DNA of 59,738 nucleotides from Vulcanimicrobiota bacterium (GTDB lineage Bacteria; Vulcanimicrobiota; JAJTBE01): contig JAIORV010000062.1 of assembly GCA_021107945.1 (NCBI GenBank), positions 1 through 59,738 on the forward strand, given 5' to 3'. Both the position numbers and the translations under genes were made by a program. Positions 6,151 through 39,526 of this stretch are shown here, piece after piece; within the stretch, counting starts at the first letter, position 1; each line of letters opens with the position of its first letter. Under the pieces are notes generated by a model that was not told the DNA's origin, did no database searches, and saw only the letters and a program-made list of their open reading frames with translations.

Positions 6151-7044
6151 CTATTTTTTGACATTTACAACTTCTCTGTTTACATCAATTATTCTTCCTT
6201 TTTTTGTTATTAATAAATTATACTTAAAAAGGACATGCGTTTCTCGAGAAAAGACAAAAAATTTAATACCGAGAATACCGGGCGATTTGACAATGTATTC
6301 TGGAAAAACTCTATTATAAAAATATAATTTTTTGCTATCTGAAGTATTTCTTAATTCGATATGTCTGGAAAAATATCTGGAAACAATCTCTTTAATTGCT
6401 TCTTTGTCCTTTTCGTCAAATACTATAATTGGGTTTACCCCCTGATCTGAATCAAAAGTAAGATATATATATAGCTTTAAATAGTTTTTGTAATTTTTAT
6501 CGTTTAGATTAAATTTGGTTTCAATTTTATTAATTATATTATTAAATATTATTGAATTTAATCTATAATCATCTCCATAATTTGTAATTATTAAATTCTT
6601 ATCTGAATCGTATATTTTATAATATTCCCATAAACAATTAGCTTTTCCCACTAAACCAAAAACTGTGTGCTTAATAACAGTAACTTTTTTTTGTGATATC
6701 TGATGTGGAGTTTCAATATCCATTCTTTCAAAAAAAAATGGCTCAAGATGACGAAACTTGGAAGTTATAGATATCTTCTCTATATCAGATTGTGAGTATT
6801 TAGATTTTTTTTTCTTTTCTAAAAATTTAATTAAATAATCCTCGGCACTTTTGCTTTTTTTAATATTTCTATCTGAACTCAGCCTCTGCTTAATGCCCCT
6901 TTTAAGAAAATTTACTGAAGTTGGAATAACCAATTTTTTCTTTATTGGGAAATTTATAAAATAGATATATAAAATAAAAAAAAGAACTATAACAAAAATA
7001 AATAATATCCTTGTTTTTAATTTTTTTGTAATAGATGTCTTCAT
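6151..7044 (-). CDS. Unknown membrane-anchored protein, AT-rich
   Basis: I do not recognise a family. One transmembrane segment follows a lysine-rich start (about residues 13-31, FIFVIVLFFILYIYFI). The rest is a 265-residue hydrophilic domain likely on the outer side of the membrane, with mixed alpha/beta character and many K, N and I residues. The nucleotide composition is far more AT-rich than the flanking genes, with long A and T runs, shared with the next gene upstream on the same strand. That suggests recent acquisition as a pair. The last 60 bases before 6151 hold a short inverted repeat, GTTAG...CTAAC, without a clear T run. Confidence 0.6.
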   Translation of the reverse strand: MKTSITKKLKTRILFIFVIVLFFILYIYFINFPIKKKLVIPTSVNFLKRGIKQRLSSDRNIKKSKSAEDYLIKFLEKKKKSKYSQSDIEKISITSKFRHLEPFFFERMDIETPHQISQKKVTVIKHTVFGLVGKANCLWEYYKIYDSDKNLIITNYGDDYRLNSIIFNNIINKIETKFNLNDKNYKNYLKLYIYLTFDSDQGVNPIIVFDEKDKEAIKEIVSRYFSRHIELRNTSDSKKLYFYNRVFPEYIVKSPGILGIKFFVFSRETHVLFKYNLLITKKGRIIDVNREVVNVKK

Positions 7045-7103
7045 AACGGTTAATTACTTTCCTGTGAAATTCTTCACGTTCCGACTTCCTGGTTTTACTA
7101 TGT

Positions 7104-7949
7104 TTAGCTTTTAAGAGCCTTCACTCTCTTCTCGGCTTCCTTTCTTGGTTCTGAAATTATCTTTTCTTTTTTAACTTTTTCAGGAACTATTAATACATAA
7201 TGTAAAAACATGTTGTAATATTTTATTGCCTTTTTCTTATCCCCTGATTTGTCATAAGATTTACCTAAATAATAATATAAAGGAAGCTTATGATATCCCA
7301 TTTCCTGGAGTTTGTTGAAATCCTTCAGAGCTAATTCAGTTTTGCCTTTATTTAGATTTGCTATCCCTCTAACCATAATTCCGAAGGGATCATTGGGAGA
7401 TATTGAAAGCCCTTTTTTGACATCTTCAAGAGCTTTATCGTTTTTTCCAATATTTGTTTCCGCCGATGCACGATTGAAATATGCAAGATAACAATTTTCA
7501 TCAAGCTCTATCGCTTTATTGCATTGAGATATAACTTTCTGATATTCTTGCTTATTCAGATAGGCAAACCCAAGATTGGAATAATACTCGGGAACGTCAG
7601 GGTTTATCTTTATTGCAGTCTCTATATCTTTTATTCCCTTATCAAATTCACCAATTTCTCTGTATGCAATACCTCGGTTGCAATATGCTTTGTCATTTTC
7701 AGGATCTAACTCTATAGCCCTGTTAAACTTCTCGATAGCTTCCTGTTGTTTATTTTGACGAAGCAATTTATACCCTTCTTTATGCAACATTTTTGATTTT
7801 GCACTTTTATTAAGAGGGATTCTGACAGTCGGCAGTTTTATGCATGAACTGTTTATCAAGAGAAAAAGTGAAATAAATACGAAACAGATAACTTTCTTTT
7901 CAATTACATCAAAACAAGTGAAATATTCTCTATAAAAATTTTCTTTCAT
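7104..7949 (-). CDS. TPR repeat protein, exported
   Basis: A tetratricopeptide repeat scaffold. After a hydrophobic segment at about residues 18-35 ending in LINSSC (a poor lipobox), six to seven TPR units run to the end. Typical spacing is visible: GYKLLRQNKQQEAIEKFNRAI, AYCNRGIAYREIGEFDKGI, YYSNLGFAYLNKQEYQKVI. TPRs mediate protein contacts and no enzymatic motif is present. It is upstream of the unknown AT-rich gene by 59 bases on the same strand and shares its low GC content, so the two may be co-transcribed and co-inherited. The only methionine in a sensible place is at 7949, leaving a 17-residue charged leader before the hydrophobic stretch. Confidence 0.8.
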   Translation of the reverse strand: MKENFYREYFTCFDVIEKKVICFVFISLFLLINSSCIKLPTVRIPLNKSAKSKMLHKEGYKLLRQNKQQEAIEKFNRAIELDPENDKAYCNRGIAYREIGEFDKGIKDIETAIKINPDVPEYYSNLGFAYLNKQEYQKVISQCNKAIELDENCYLAYFNRASAETNIGKNDKALEDVKKGLSISPNDPFGIMVRGIANLNKGKTELALKDFNKLQEMGYHKLPLYYYLGKSYDKSGDKKKAIKYYNMFLHYVLIVPEKVKKEKIISEPRKEAEKRVKALKS

Positions 7950-27048: not shown

Positions 27049-28221
27049 ATGAAAAAGAAAGCGACAATAGCACTTCTGATTCTTGCTTCTTTTCTAATGC
27101 TTGCTTTGCCGGTGCTGGGAGCGGCGAAGAACGATTTCCCATTACTTGACAAATTGATGAAAGCGGACTTTGGTGCGAAAAAGAAAGTGGCCGAGTTTAT
27201 CAGGAGCAAGTATCCTGACCTGAGAATGGAGATTTTCCGGTTCGTCAGTAAGAATAGCCCGGAGACACTGACGCTGATACGGGCGGAAAAAATGCAGCTT
27301 ATTGCCGACAAGTATCCCGGACTTCCAGTAAAGCTTCCCCGGGCGGTTCTGTCGGATCTGGAGAAAAAATACCCTTGCCCCATAATGGATATTGCGGTTG
27401 ATGTAACAGGATTGATTAAGGATAAATATCCTATGTTGCCCGCAGAAGTGGTTCGCTGGAGGAGCGACTCGAAAATCAAGTCGAAGACCGTCAGGGTAAT
27501 AATGAGAAAGCATGCCACACTGATTCCCGATGTGATGAAGGTTATGGCCGAGGGCAATTACCCGCAACAGGTGAATTCTCTGAAAGCTGATCTCAAAGAG
27601 ATGATGGCGAAGAAGCACCCGGGATTGAAAGAAAAAGTGAAGCTTGAGGTTGTAAGCCTGGTTGTAACAAAGTATCCCGATCTTCCTGTAAAAATCGCCG
27701 CCATAAAGGAAAACCCGAAAAAGAACCCGAGGATTGCAATAATCGAGATGATTTGCAAAGAGCACCCGGAGTTTATCAACGATGTTGTCAGAACGGTGAG
27801 AGATAAACATGGCACGGAGATTCACGAGGCCGTTATGGATGCCCTCAAGCTGGTTGAAGACAAATACCCAAAATTAATAACCGACCTGCCAAGGGATATG
27901 AGCGCAATGATTGCAAAGAAGCATCCCACGCTTATGACGGATATTGCAAGGGTTAGAATGGACAGCAGGCATTCTGTAAGAGCGAAGGTTGAGAAGAAAT
28001 ATCCCGGTCTCAGAAAAGATGTAAAGGATATGATTGCAAAGAAGTACCCCAATCTTGGCGAAGATGTGTCACTTTCAATCGAAAAGAACTTCCCCGGTCT
28101 GAAAAAGGATATGGCCGATATGATGAAGACAAAATTCTCCGGGTTCATGGCAAGTGTGAAGGAGCATATCAATAAGAAGCACCCGAGATTGATGCCCGAT
28201 GTCGAAAAAATGCTTAAATAG
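27049..28221 (+). CDS. Exported KYP-repeat helical protein, unknown family
   Basis: A signal peptide at 1-26 (MLALPVLGAA) is followed by 12 to 15 degenerate repeats of about 16-30 residues anchored on K-[KR]-[YH]-P-x-L, then x2-D/K-[VI]-x3-[IVM]. Examples are SKYPDLRMEIFRFV, DKYPGLPVKLPRAVL, KKHPGLKEKVKLEVV, KKYPGLRKDVKDMIAKKYPNL and KKHPRLMPDVEKML. Each unit looks like one helix ending in a Lys-Tyr/His-Pro turn, so the protein is probably a basic helical solenoid in the periplasm or outside the cell. I do not recognise the repeat. GGGAGGAAC lies 5-12 nt before the ATG. It is isolated by repeats on the 3' side. Confidence 0.75.
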   Translation: MKKKATIALLILASFLMLALPVLGAAKNDFPLLDKLMKADFGAKKKVAEFIRSKYPDLRMEIFRFVSKNSPETLTLIRAEKMQLIADKYPGLPVKLPRAVLSDLEKKYPCPIMDIAVDVTGLIKDKYPMLPAEVVRWRSDSKIKSKTVRVIMRKHATLIPDVMKVMAEGNYPQQVNSLKADLKEMMAKKHPGLKEKVKLEVVSLVVTKYPDLPVKIAAIKENPKKNPRIAIIEMICKEHPEFINDVVRTVRDKHGTEIHEAVMDALKLVEDKYPKLITDLPRDMSAMIAKKHPTLMTDIARVRMDSRHSVRAKVEKKYPGLRKDVKDMIAKKYPNLGEDVSLSIEKNFPGLKKDMADMMKTKFSGFMASVKEHINKKHPRLMPDVEKMLK

Positions 28222-28897
28222 TCGGGTCAAATATTCAACGCAGGGATTGCGGGATTCGCAGAGGATAACCGGAGAAAAAGCATCGATATCTCCAGGTAGA
28301 AGTGAGAAATAGGAATAAGGAAGATGGAATAAGGAAGATGGATCCATTTTCCTTTTTCTTTTTTCGTTATCCATCTTCTTTTATCGGGACGGGGACGTCC
28401 CTATTATAAGGGAAATGGGAAGGGGGACGTGGGAATGGGGAATAGGGAAAGGGGACGTGGGAAACGAGATCCATCTTCCATTTTCCATCATCTATCTTCT
28501 GTTATCCGTTTATCGGGACGGGGACGTCCCTCCTACAGTTCTGACCTCCGTTCTCCATTTTCATTATTTCCTAATTTCCTTAGAGGTAGTAATCCTCATT
28601 TCCTTATGAATAGAGGAGAATTTTGGAGGGAAAGGGACAAAAAGGAAAATACCAGGATTTTGAGGTTTTTCGACGCCCTCTTCTCCATCCTCCGTTTTCC
28701 GTTATCCATCATCTTTTATCGGGACGGGGACGTCCCTCCTACAGTTTTGGCCTCTGCCCTTCGTTATCCGTTCTATATTTTCATTATTTCCTAATTTCCT
28801 TAGAGGTAATAATCCTCATTTCCTCATTAATAGAGGAGAATTTTGGCATGGATTTAATAGAGTTCATGCGTTAATATTTCATTATCCGGAGGGGTGT
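28222..28897. repeat. Repeat-filled spacer: three hairpins, heptad arrays, a 70-bp direct repeat
   Basis: About 675 bases with no gene. GGGACG/CGTCCC hairpins are at 28380-28405, 28509-28536 and 28715-28742. Purine-rich heptads run at 28410-28460 and switch to pyrimidine-rich at GAAACGAGATCC. A 70-bp direct repeat at 28557-28626 and 28777-28846 (starting TCATTATTTCC, containing TTAGAGGTA, ending GAGGAGAATTTTGG) differs at only a few positions. A related fragment is at 47290-47330. The next gene has GGAGG 7 nt before its ATG. Confidence 0.8.
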
Positions 28898-31072: not shown

Positions 31073-31708
31073 TTATTCCGTGAATTCAACTGTCAATTCT
31101 TTGACGTCCCAGAGCGGCTCTATTTTCTCTTTTATCTCTTCCTTTATTGCCGGAGCAAACTGGTGATCCGGGGGCAAGTCGATAACTACCCGGACAGATC
31201 CTTTCTTTATCTCAATTCCCTGCACCAGGTTGGTGCGCACAAGGTCTAATCCGGCCATAGGGTTCATGACTTTCTTGAGGCGTTTGCGAACTATCTCTAT
31301 CGTAGTCGGTTTTCTATCCTTAATCAGTCCATGGCGCTCTTCGTAGTTTTCAATGGCCGAAAGTAAACCCTCCACAGCAAGCACCGAACAGTGGACTTTG
31401 ATTTTGGGAAGTCCTCCCAGCGCTTCTGAAGCTTCCTTCCAGGTAATCTTCTTGGCTTCATCCAGTGTCTTTCCCTTGGCCAACTCGGTAATGATAGAGC
31501 CGGTGGCAATGTTGGAGGCACATCCATAAGATTCAAATTTGATATCCGAGATAATCTTTGTCTCAGGGTCAACTTTTATATGAACAGACACCATGTCGCC
31601 ACAGGCCGGGCTACCCTCCATCGCTTTTCCGTCAGCGTTCTCAATTTTACCTACGTTATGAGGGTTGCGAAAGTGTTCCATTACAGTTTCACTATATGGA
31701 AAGCTCAT
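31073..31708 (-). CDS. IscU/NifU-type Fe-S scaffold fused to a MIP18/DUF59-like domain
   Basis: Residues 1-125 are the IscU scaffold with the three cluster cysteines at 36 (SPACGD), 63 (YGCASN) and 107 (KVHCSV); Asp38 next to the first Cys is kept. Residues 138-211 (IVRKRLKKVMNPMAGLDLVRTNLVQGIEI ...VKELTVEF) look like a MIP18/SufT/DUF59 domain, a family linked to Fe-S maturation, but without its usual conserved Cys. The LPPVK Hsc66-binding motif of bacterial IscU is replaced by LPKIK. It is the last gene of the four-gene operon, 23 bases after the desulfurase-like gene, with AGGAG ahead of the ATG. Role: assembly and delivery of Fe-S clusters; the joined carrier domain is unusual. Confidence 0.9.
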   Translation of the reverse strand: MSFPYSETVMEHFRNPHNVGKIENADGKAMEGSPACGDMVSVHIKVDPETKIISDIKFESYGCASNIATGSIITELAKGKTLDEAKKITWKEASEALGGLPKIKVHCSVLAVEGLLSAIENYEERHGLIKDRKPTTIEIVRKRLKKVMNPMAGLDLVRTNLVQGIEIKKGSVRVVIDLPPDHQFAPAIKEEIKEKIEPLWDVKELTVEFTE

Positions 31709-31731
31709 TTCAATTTCTCCTATTCTTCTTT

Positions 31732-32898
31732 CTATTTACCCAATGGGCTGATACTTCTAAGTTTCTGTACCACCTCAGCCAGCGTATCAACTACGGCATC
31801 GACGTCTTCCATAGTATTGTAACGCCCGAAGGTGAAACGAATTGAGCCATGCGCCTTTTCATGATCACCGCCAATGCCGAAGATAACATGGCTTCCCTCC
31901 AGCGAGCGGCTGAAACATGCGGAGCCTGTGCTTACGGCAAAACCATGCATATCCAGATGCAGGATAATAGATTCACCTTCTATGAAGTGGAACGAAATAT
32001 TGGCATTCTGCGGGAGTCTTTTCCAGCGATGGCCATTGAGGTCAGCATCAGGTATTTCGGCAAGTATGCGGTCTATGAGATGATCACGCATTGATTGTAA
32101 CCGTTCGGTTTCCCGGTCAGTAACCAATTCCGTCGCTTTGGCGAAACCCACCGCGGCAGGTATATTTTCAAGTCCGGGGCGGAGGTTAAACTCTTGAAAT
32201 CCACCGTCCATCCACTTGGCTATTTTTGTCCCTTGTCTAATATACAGTCCCCCAATACCTCTCGGACCGTGAATGGTGTGGGCAGATACAGTGATCAGGT
32301 CCACGGGTATTTTCTTCACGTCAAGTGGGACTTTGGTGAAAGTGTGCGTGGCATCGGTATGAAAGAGCACTCCCTTCTCACGACAGATGAGACCGATTTT
32401 TTCAATATCCTGGATGGTGCCGATCTCCTGGTTTGCATGCTGGATGGAAACCAAAATGGTTTCGTTAGTGATAGATTCTCTGAGTTGATCAAGATTTACA
32501 AAACCTTCGTTATCTACATCCAGGTAGGTCACATTGAACCCATGCTTTTCAAGATCTTTGGCGCTATTAAGAACCGGAAAATCCTCGATTTTTGACACAA
32601 TCAGATGTTTCCCTTTTTTGTTACCAAGAGCTAGCGCAACTCCCTTCAGGGCGATGTTTGAGGACTCGGTGCTTCCCGATGTAAAAATGAATTCTCCTGA
32701 GTCAGCTCCCAGAGCCCTGGCAAGGGTTTCCCTCGCCCCATCAAGACCCTCCCGGGCTTCTATGCCCATAGAATAGGCAAAATCTGAGGTTGCGACGGCA
32801 TATTTTTCGAAGTAATATGGCTTCATTGCCTCTAATACGCGCTCATCCAGACGAGTGACCGCCGAGTTATCCAGATATACTTCTCTTCTTTTTAACAT
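31732..32898 (-). CDS. IscS/NifS homologue lacking the PLP-binding lysine
   Basis: A full-length class V aminotransferase fold (388 residues) that aligns end to end with NifS/IscS: YLDNSAVT, FTSGSTESSN, QHANQEIG, GGFQEF, LENIPAAVGFAKA and RFTFGRYNT. The persulfide-forming Cys328 is present in STGSACFSRSLEGSH. The lysine that forms the PLP aldimine (SAHK in relatives) is Thr208 here: the codon is ACC in SAHTIHGPRG, read directly from the DNA. The PLP-stacking His is Asp106 (KIEDFPV) and the usual Gln of DAxQ is His185 (TDATH). Ordinary desulfurase chemistry therefore seems impossible. A non-desulfurase IscS is, as I recall, known from Archaeoglobus fulgidus. It may act as a cysteine ligand or persulfide acceptor for IscU. 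Confidence 0.92.
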   Translation of the reverse strand: MLKRREVYLDNSAVTRLDERVLEAMKPYYFEKYAVATSDFAYSMGIEAREGLDGARETLARALGADSGEFIFTSGSTESSNIALKGVALALGNKKGKHLIVSKIEDFPVLNSAKDLEKHGFNVTYLDVDNEGFVNLDQLRESITNETILVSIQHANQEIGTIQDIEKIGLICREKGVLFHTDATHTFTKVPLDVKKIPVDLITVSAHTIHGPRGIGGLYIRQGTKIAKWMDGGFQEFNLRPGLENIPAAVGFAKATELVTDRETERLQSMRDHLIDRILAEIPDADLNGHRWKRLPQNANISFHFIEGESIILHLDMHGFAVSTGSACFSRSLEGSHVIFGIGGDHEKAHGSIRFTFGRYNTMEDVDAVVDTLAEVVQKLRSISPLGK

Positions 32899-32937
32899 AT
32901 CTTACTCCTGTTATCTTTCCAAAATCTCTCTCTTCTC

Positions 32938-33357
32938 TTATATGAAGAGGGTTATCGATGATTCCCTTGCCTCATTAATATAAGTGCCTACTGCGCAATA
33001 CTCCGATATTAAATCCTCACGCATGTCTTCCTTCTTAATTCCCATTATTTCCATGGTCATATCGCAAGCGAGGATTTTTCCTCCGAGCTCTTTGCAGTCT
33101 TGTAGTAACTTCTCCAGGGAAACCACACCAACCTTTTTCATCTTTTCCTCCATTACAAATTTGCCAAATCCCAGCATATTCTTCCTGGAGAGAGGTCCTT
33201 TCTCAAGACCTCCTTTTTTAAGGCGAAGAAGTCCCCAGAAAGTGAAGAAAAGTGACGCTTCCATCCCCATCGCCAGTGCTCCATTTGCAATAATAAGAGC
33301 ACTATATATTTTATCCATGTCGCCACTGTGAACTATAATCGTAGTTTTGTCGGACAT
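32938..33357 (-). CDS. DsrE/DsrF-like sulfur-carrier family protein
   Basis: A small DsrE2-type protein (about 139 residues). It has the Rossmann-like start KTTIIVHSGDMDKIYSALIIANGALAMGMEASLFFTFWGL and a conserved cysteine in GGKILACDMTMEIMGI, the position that carries persulfide in this family. A lysine-rich middle loop (LKKGGLEKG) matches DsrE2 proteins found beside TusA and rhodanese genes. Start chosen at 33357, because AGGAGGAA ends 6 bases before it while the ATG at 33363 abuts that site. It is 14 bases from tusA upstream and about 39 before the IscS-like gene downstream. It probably receives sulfur from, or passes sulfur to, TusA. Confidence 0.88.
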   Translation of the reverse strand: MSDKTTIIVHSGDMDKIYSALIIANGALAMGMEASLFFTFWGLLRLKKGGLEKGPLSRKNMLGFGKFVMEEKMKKVGVVSLEKLLQDCKELGGKILACDMTMEIMGIKKEDMREDLISEYCAVGTYINEARESSITLFI

Positions 33358-33371
33358 GGTCATTTCCTCCT

Positions 33372-33593
33372 CTACCTTTGTATCCTGATCTTCCAGACCC
33401 CGTCTTTCTCCTGAATCTCTAAGAGCTCCAGCCCCAAAGCTTCAACGGCCATGGGTATTTCTTTTTTAGAAGCAGGATGAGTCCCGACAACCTCGACTAT
33501 ATCATTTTCTTTTGCTTTCATCAAGGCCTTGCGGGTTTCAACAAGGGGTACCGGGCATGTTTCACCCGTACAGTCCACTCTTATCAAAGTCAT
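33372..33593 (-). CDS. tusA: TusA/SirA-family sulfur carrier
   Basis: A 73-residue protein with the signature CPVP at residues 13-16 (GETCPVPLVETRKAL). Its cysteine binds sulfane sulfur as a persulfide. The rest (IVEVVGTHPASKKEIPMAVEALGLELLEIQEKDG) follows the TusA fold. It is the first gene of the sulfur operon and has AGGAGCG 7 nt before the ATG. In E. coli TusA feeds tRNA 2-thiouridine. With a DsrE-like partner, as here, it is often part of sulfur-oxidation or general sulfur-relay routes. Placed upstream of an IscS lacking its PLP lysine, it is a good candidate for the true sulfur donor. Confidence 0.92.
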   Translation of the reverse strand: MTLIRVDCTGETCPVPLVETRKALMKAKENDIVEVVGTHPASKKEIPMAVEALGLELLEIQEKDGVWKIRIQR

Positions 33594-33878
33594 TATGTAT
33601 CGCTCCTATACGTAGCGCGGGTTTTTAAACCCGCAAATTATCGTGTATAAACCACGTAGCGCGGGTTTTTAAACCCGCTAATATATCGTATTTCAATCTT
33701 GGGCAGGCACCATATATGGGCAAGCCTGAAGACCCCCGCTACTTATAACATGTCCTGACAATGAAGTTAAAAAGTTTGTTTGGCAAGGATTATAATATCC
33801 TATAAAAACATCCACATTTAAAAACATGGATGCTTCTTTATTATTAAATAATTCAAACCCTGCATGAAGAGCTGATTC
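33594..33878. repeat. Promoter region of the sulfur operon with two GCGGG/CCCGC palindromes
   Basis: Two copies of a palindrome, GCGGGTTTTTAAACCCGC (33617-33634 and 33661-33678), each preceded by CGTA, lie about 20 and 60 bases upstream of tusA. Related copies are at 39463-39486 and 39503-39526, so this is a dispersed element, not a dedicated operator. It may still act on the tusA leader or promoter. The right part contains a terminator for the glycine-zipper genes. Confidence 0.6.
33802..33833 (-). terminator. Terminator after the glycine-zipper gene pair
   Basis: Read on the minus strand: CATCCA ... TGGATG stem with an AT-rich loop, followed by TTTTTATA. It lies about 45 bases after the stop at 33879. 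Confidence 0.7.
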
Positions 33879-39462: not shown

Positions 39463-39526
39463 CGTAGCGCGGGTTTTTAAACCCGCAAAAAAAACCTCGT
39501 AACGTAGCGCGGATCTTTAGACCCGC
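39463..39526. repeat. Two GCGGG/CCCGC palindromes
   Basis: CGTA followed by GCGGGTTTTTAAACCCGC (39463-39486), and a variant GCGGATCTTTAGACCCGC (39503-39526). Same family as the two ahead of tusA. Confidence 0.7.

Follow-up and report, generated by a model that had tools for sequence, protein, structure and literature searches.

Lysine-less members of the IscS family are known from archaea. In Archaeoglobus fulgidus, Asp stands in place of the PLP lysine of IscS, the protein has no desulfurase activity and it supplies a Cys ligand to the cluster on IscU, as cited in PMC7585200; the precedent that a sequence-only reading of the present DNA had named, an Archaeoglobus IscS inactive as a desulfurase after a similar Lys loss, is thus real. 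The same protein, with Asp at the lysine position, has been crystallised with PLP (PDB 4EB5; PMC9769115). Besides this inactive enzyme, the lack of the lysine in IscS1 of Methanosarcina acetivorans and the 24 kDa size of its IscU1 are already on record in PMC7585200; IscS1 itself is uncharacterised, having gone into inclusion bodies (PMC7585200). As to the supply of sulfur, sulfide feeds IscU in iscS-deleted E. coli, with no IscS needed (PMC13015791), and also feeds SMS (PMC12192291), while both the thiolation of tRNA and the oxidation of sulfur involve TusA and DsrE proteins (PMC3397948).

A four-gene cassette around a lysine-less IscS homologue

The window (the whole stretch analysed, 59,738 nt of contig JAIORV010000062.1 from a Vulcanimicrobiota bacterium) contains four tightly spaced minus-strand ORFs (Table 1), whose Pfam families confirm their reading from sequence as TusA, DsrE-like, IscS and IscU genes; in the order tusA, dsrE2-like, iscS*, iscU59 the gaps are 8, 39 and 23 nt. 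No promoter match above chance was found in the region directly upstream. The perfect palindrome GCGGGTTTTTAAACCCGC, for which 0.02 matches are expected by chance, occurs at 33617-33634 and 33661-33678, both just upstream of the operon, and again at 39469-39486. Elsewhere in the window, a non-coding near-repeat with GGGACGGGGACGTCCCT (28360-28846) looks similar to a stretch near 1187-1438 of L001, another contig of the same genome, such stretches being apparently a dispersed repeat of the host genome, and 27049-28221 encodes a 390-aa protein with a signal-like N terminus followed by many imperfect KYP/KHP repeat units.

Table 1. Features of the cassette locus in window coordinates
Feature	Position	Strand	Details
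tusA (TusA-like sulfur carrier)	33372..33593	-	73 aa, CPxP motif; Pfam TusA 4.8e-23
dsrE2-like gene (sulfur carrier, PF13686)	32938..33363	-	141 aa; Pfam DrsE_2 1.6e-36
iscS* (Lys-less group I IscS/NifS homologue)	31732..32898	-	388 aa; Pfam Aminotran_5 1.2e-68
iscU59 (IscU scaffold fused to DUF59/MIP18)	31073..31708	-	211 aa; NifU_N 4e-42, FeS_assembly_P 6.3e-14
Region directly upstream of operon	33594..33690	-	two copies of palindromic 29-nt repeat GCGGGTTTTTAAACCCGC

Translation and alignment placed T208, D106, H185 and C328 of IscS* at the positions of K206, H104, Q183 and C328 of E. coli IscS, which upholds the earlier claim that the Lys, His and Gln of the PLP site are replaced while the persulfide Cys is retained. 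The N-terminal loop is rewritten and carries an inserted Phe, and Q157 corresponds to E. coli N155 (an N155Q change); the equivalents of E. coli T76, D180 (D182 here), H205 (H207 here), R354 and C328 are kept. One scan of GTDB genome contigs gave 226 encoded relatives, 80 of which (67-84% identity to IscS*) were kept. Among these 80 and the window, D104, Q155, H183 and C328 (E. coli numbering) are present in 81/81 sequences, the Cys lying in a GSACFS context with Phe as its next residue, and position 206 is T in 71 and L in 10, never Lys; the phosphate-binding Thr, T243, is altered in 80 of the 81. The Lys-type enzymes compared have H, N, Q and K at 104, 155, 183 and 206 without exception (31/31). 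Such conservation rules out sequencing error, which had already been judged unlikely, or chance as the source of the changes. The eight pocket positions average 97.5% conservation vs. 78.5% for the whole protein, so that the site is maintained in a new form rather than decaying. The C-terminal LRxISPL stretch, which contributes to IscU contact in IscS, shows little or no variation among the relatives.

The AlphaFold2 model of IscS* (pLDDT 84.5) matches solved NFS1/IscS chains of fold-type I at a TM of about 0.9; by sequence, the top match of IscS* among solved structures is A. fulgidus IscS. Scores against two NCBIfam models lie below their cut-offs (TIGR03402, 451.3 vs. 530.75 bits; TIGR02006, 381.7 vs. 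643.2), and three features by which a group I cysteine desulfurase is judged, namely the PLP lysine, the PLP-stacking His and the O3' Gln, are missing in 81/81 sequences. Judged from these residues, IscS* can no longer make a Schiff base with PLP (the internal aldimine), and cysteine should therefore not serve it as a source of sulfur; we infer that it has no cysteine desulfurase activity. The sequence-only reading had held that PLP cannot be bound in the normal way: this stands for the internal aldimine, but the cofactor itself could still bind without the lysine, by analogy with 4EB5 and with the kept equivalents of D180, T76, H205 and R354.

IscU59 consists of an IscU scaffold (residues 5-126) and a DUF59/MIP18 domain (140-207), the latter scoring 52.4 bits against the FeS_assembly_P cut-off of 23.5. 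Its cluster-ligand cysteines C36, C63 and C107 are present in 80/80 sequences, and D38 and H106 are at least 97% conserved. A conserved reactive Cys is the defining feature of SufT/Cia2 DUF59/MIP18 proteins; no conserved Cys was found in the DUF59 domain among the IscU59 relatives, which have a DHQF motif in its place. The carriers have invariant cysteines, C13 in TusA (74/74 relatives) and C100 in DsrE2 (72/72), and the cassette DsrE2 scores 71 bits with NCBIfam SulfCarrDsrE2, far under the cut-off of 210. A selenium link suggested by YedF-like matches of TusA was set aside as weak. The IscU-DUF59 fusion, the N155Q change, the loss of T243 and the rewritten loop are features beyond those noticed at first reading.

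Distribution and transfer of the cassette

The 80 kept relatives (of 226) come from Chloroflexota, Desulfobacterota, Atribacterota, methanogens, Altiarchaea and Heimdallarchaea, and in nearly all of them the Lys-less pocket with its D and H recurs beside tusA/dsrE, the recurrence that the sequence-only reading had proposed to look for. All four genes are together in 70 of the 80 loci, with gaps mostly below 40 nt, 59 of these full cassettes having the gene order of the window and 11 the order iscS-iscU-tusA-dsrE (Anaerolineae-type). Four of the remaining 10 loci are cut by contig ends; in the six others (L038, L056, L072, L073, L079 and L080) tusA and/or dsrE2 were not found near iscS*, and in two of the six, labelled Methanococcoides, neither was found beside it.

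No conserved fifth gene recurs next to the cassette apart from lineage-specific neighbours, nor does any of iscA, hscBA, fdx and iscR of the bacterial ISC operon recur in its neighbourhood. A ferritin gene separates iscS* from iscU59 in four Anaerolineae (L050:7216-7719, L072:6011-6505, L068:4209-4709 and L022 near 6810-7682), and upstream in two of these four a fusion of a hexapeptide-repeat protein (CysE-like serine acetyltransferase) to DUF59/MIP18 (L050:4954-5958, L072:3788-4792) adjoins a second IscU; these neighbours point to an iron/Fe-S context for the cassette. Between iscS* and iscU59 of six Dehalococcoidia (L037, L042, L045, L046, L051 and L063) there are one or two Asp/Glu racemase-like genes.

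The IscS* clade is monophyletic (100/100) with a long stem, placed among archaeal Lys-type IscS, and pairwise distances of the four cassette proteins correlate (rho 0.42-0.66, p=0.002). Among 393 Halobacteriota genomes IscS* was found in 55 and IscU59 in 56, single-copy and adjacent, the one extra IscU59 starting at a contig edge, while within the class to which a Dehalococcoidales genome belongs only 8 of 294 genomes carry IscS*. This patchy spread, with a tree that mixes bacteria and archaea, indicates that the whole cassette moved horizontally between the two, repeatedly. In the phylum of the window, IscS* occurs in 1 of 149 genomes, the window's own, and its closest relatives are Dehalococcoidia proteins (84%). 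The tetranucleotide profile of the contig falls inside the range spanned by 20 further stretches of its assembly, which argues against bin contamination; with the contig native to its assembly, this single occurrence argues for horizontal acquisition by the Vulcanimicrobiota bacterium. The locus first noticed in that bacterium is accordingly real but not peculiar to it, being part of a horizontally spread cassette that is common in methanogens.

Sulfur supply and the role of IscS*

The Vulcanimicrobiota genome also has a complete Lys-type IscS on L001, two free-standing IscU-like genes and one SufB-like gene, so the proposal of a bacterial Fe-S system without a working desulfurase applies to the locus, which lacks one, but not to the genome. 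The same is usual elsewhere. Most IscS* host genomes have a Lys-type IscS or SufS as well, by which TusA could be loaded, or which it could serve. Each of 35/35 methanogen genomes examined has exactly one IscS* plus other desulfurase-like proteins, which in eight of the genomes score only like SufS types. No other match at IscS/SufS level was found in two Methanofastidiosum, one Methanothrix and one small Dehalococcoidia MAG, drafts of a kind that can miss genes. Several methanogens have SufS-like matches with one in-frame TGA or TAA (e.g. G564:C41, G318:C1, G434:C1, G457:C1 and G337:C1), which could reflect recoding, decay or overrun beyond the true end.

A search of Halobacteriota with A. 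fulgidus IscS gave 16 close loci with a different Lys-less pocket: 16/16 have D at 206, A at 183, N at 205 and L/V at 354 and keep the stacking His104, and none of D206, A183 and L/V354 is found in the 81 sequences of the IscS* clade. All 16 have tusA and/or dsrE within 1.5 kb upstream and iscU downstream, the IscU being too short for a DUF59 fusion; three have a ThiI-like gene upstream, as read from sequence. Neither tusA nor dsrE was found, within the stretch read, beside Lys-type group I IscS at 24 loci, each of them verified or identical to verified paralogues. The contrast of 16/16 with 0/25 (the 25 including one unverified truncated locus) gives a Fisher p of about 1e-11, which is indicative only, the loci being kin and partly from the same genomes. 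The two Lys-less types form separate clades, each at 100/100, although the AU test does not reject a tree in which the A. fulgidus row joins IscS* (p=0.36); Lys types fall on one side in 14% of bootstraps.

On the sequence evidence we consider it probable that the cassette is a module for assembling Fe-S clusters that draws on persulfide from TusA/DsrE (or on sulfide), IscS* acting in it as a relay or ligand partner and not as a desulfurase. Sulfide, polysulfide or another desulfurase would load TusA/DsrE2 with persulfide, the IscS* dimer with its mobile Cys328 loop would still dock on IscU59, and persulfide sulfur would pass from TusA/DsrE2 to Cys328 and on to the Cys/Asp site of IscU59; alternatively, Cys328 would act as a transient cluster ligand for IscU59. 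The DUF59 domain may help to pass the cluster onward. A relay from TusA/DsrE2 through C328 to IscU59 is consistent with the loop Cys and C-terminal SPL end that IscS* has kept, with its obligate scaffold partner and with the persulfide carriers encoded next to it. The earlier proposal that sulfur comes from TusA/DsrE or sulfide has gained a strong genomic link, in nearly all IscS* relatives and in the Archaeoglobus type, whereas the direction of flow from TusA/DsrE2 through IscS* to IscU59 is one that we infer.

The main rival holds that IscS* is purely a structural or Cys-ligand partner of IscU59, with free sulfide as the source and a separate job for TusA/DsrE2. The ligand role of A. fulgidus IscS (PMC7585200), the feeding of IscU (PMC13015791) and SMS (PMC12192291) by sulfide, the mostly anaerobic hosts from sulfidic settings and the two loci lacking both TusA and DsrE2 speak for it; yet a structural role predicts no TusA/DsrE adjacency, which tracks lysine loss in two IscS clades, and we regard it as a good deal less probable than the relay or ligand module fed by persulfide. 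A comparably tentative extension of that module is that both clades are persulfide-accepting chaperones fed by TusA/DsrE independently of cysteine, the IscS* pocket (D106, D182, H185, H207 and Q157) having been rebuilt for another ligand, possibly iron.

It is unlikely that IscS* is instead a lysine-less PLP- or PMP-dependent enzyme with new chemistry based on the fixed D106, H185 and Q157. Fold-type I enzymes of the ColD type, which lack the lysine and work with PMP, offer a precedent, and the pocket conservation (97.5% vs. 78.5%) and the kept equivalents of D180, T76, H205 and R354 would suit such an enzyme, but the stacking His and phosphate-binding Thr are gone, and the T/L alternation at 206 indicates that there is no replacement nucleophile. 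Less likely again is that the cassette relays sulfur to a target other than Fe-S clusters, such as tRNA thiolation, thiamine or Mo cofactor, with IscU59 as a regulator: TusA/DsrE do serve both sulfur oxidation and tRNA thiolation (PMC3397948) and the ThiI-like genes lie upstream of three Archaeoglobus-type loci, but the three cluster-ligand cysteines persist in 80/80 IscU59 sequences, the Anaerolineae neighbours include ferritin and CysE-DUF59, and the surroundings of the IscS* cassette show no recurrent thiolation gene. That the cassette is a pseudo-operon in decay or a superfluous duplicate, which the other desulfurases usual in host genomes might suggest, is very improbable given the single copy in 35/35 methanogen genomes and residues invariant across bacteria and archaea.

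With the persulfide-fed module as the favoured reading, the inactive A. fulgidus IscS passes from a curiosity to an instance of a rule, that Lys-less IscS is encoded with TusA and/or DsrE and Lys-type IscS is not. The cassette, common to many oxygen-avoiding bacteria and archaea, is a candidate answer to how IscU is fed without cysteine in anaerobes of sulfidic settings; the rule gives a testable sulfur source, and Methanosarcinaceae, in which the cassette is present, are a family with working genetics.

Comparison with known systems

The open-access literature yielded no account of the cassette with its TusA-DsrE2 partners or of how widely it is distributed among bacterial and archaeal phyla, of the IscU-DUF59 fusion or of the fixed D/Q/H/T pocket, nor of the TusA/DsrE link common to IscS* and the Archaeoglobus type. 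The nearest solved relative, A. fulgidus IscS (PDB 4EB5, 4HVK and 4R5F), is likewise a Lys-less group I protein with an intact Cys loop and an IscU partner, and its gene lies beside dsrE, and in relatives also tusA, as in the cassette; it differs in having D at the Lys position, His104, A183, N205 and L/V354, and its IscU has no DUF59 domain, unlike IscU59. In M. acetivorans IscS1 (MA0808), compared by description only, PLP-site residues including the lysine are reported missing, as in IscS* (PMC7585200), and the STGSACFS loop is that of the IscS* family (PMC7585200); IscU1 (MA0807), at 24.2 kDa, has the size expected for a DUF59 fusion (PMC7585200). The iscS1/iscU1 pair stands in a cluster with four genes that were labelled unknown at the time (PMC7585200), and the account of it describes no TusA/DsrE2 partners, DUF59 fusion or wide spread (PMC7585200).

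The Minimal ISC System (MIS) and ISC share with the cassette an IscS-like and IscU-like pair, without carriers or chaperones in the case of that pair, but the definition of both includes a functional cysteine desulfurase (PMC12192291), whereas the cassette lacks the catalytic lysine and has TusA, DsrE2 and DUF59. The TusA/DsrE2 relays of sulfur oxidisers and E. coli use the same carrier families with invariant cysteines, and the E. coli TusA-IscS complex has been solved (3LVJ). In E. coli sulfur flows from IscS to TusA (PMC3397948); since IscS* is probably unable to start the chain, the flow in the cassette is probably reversed.
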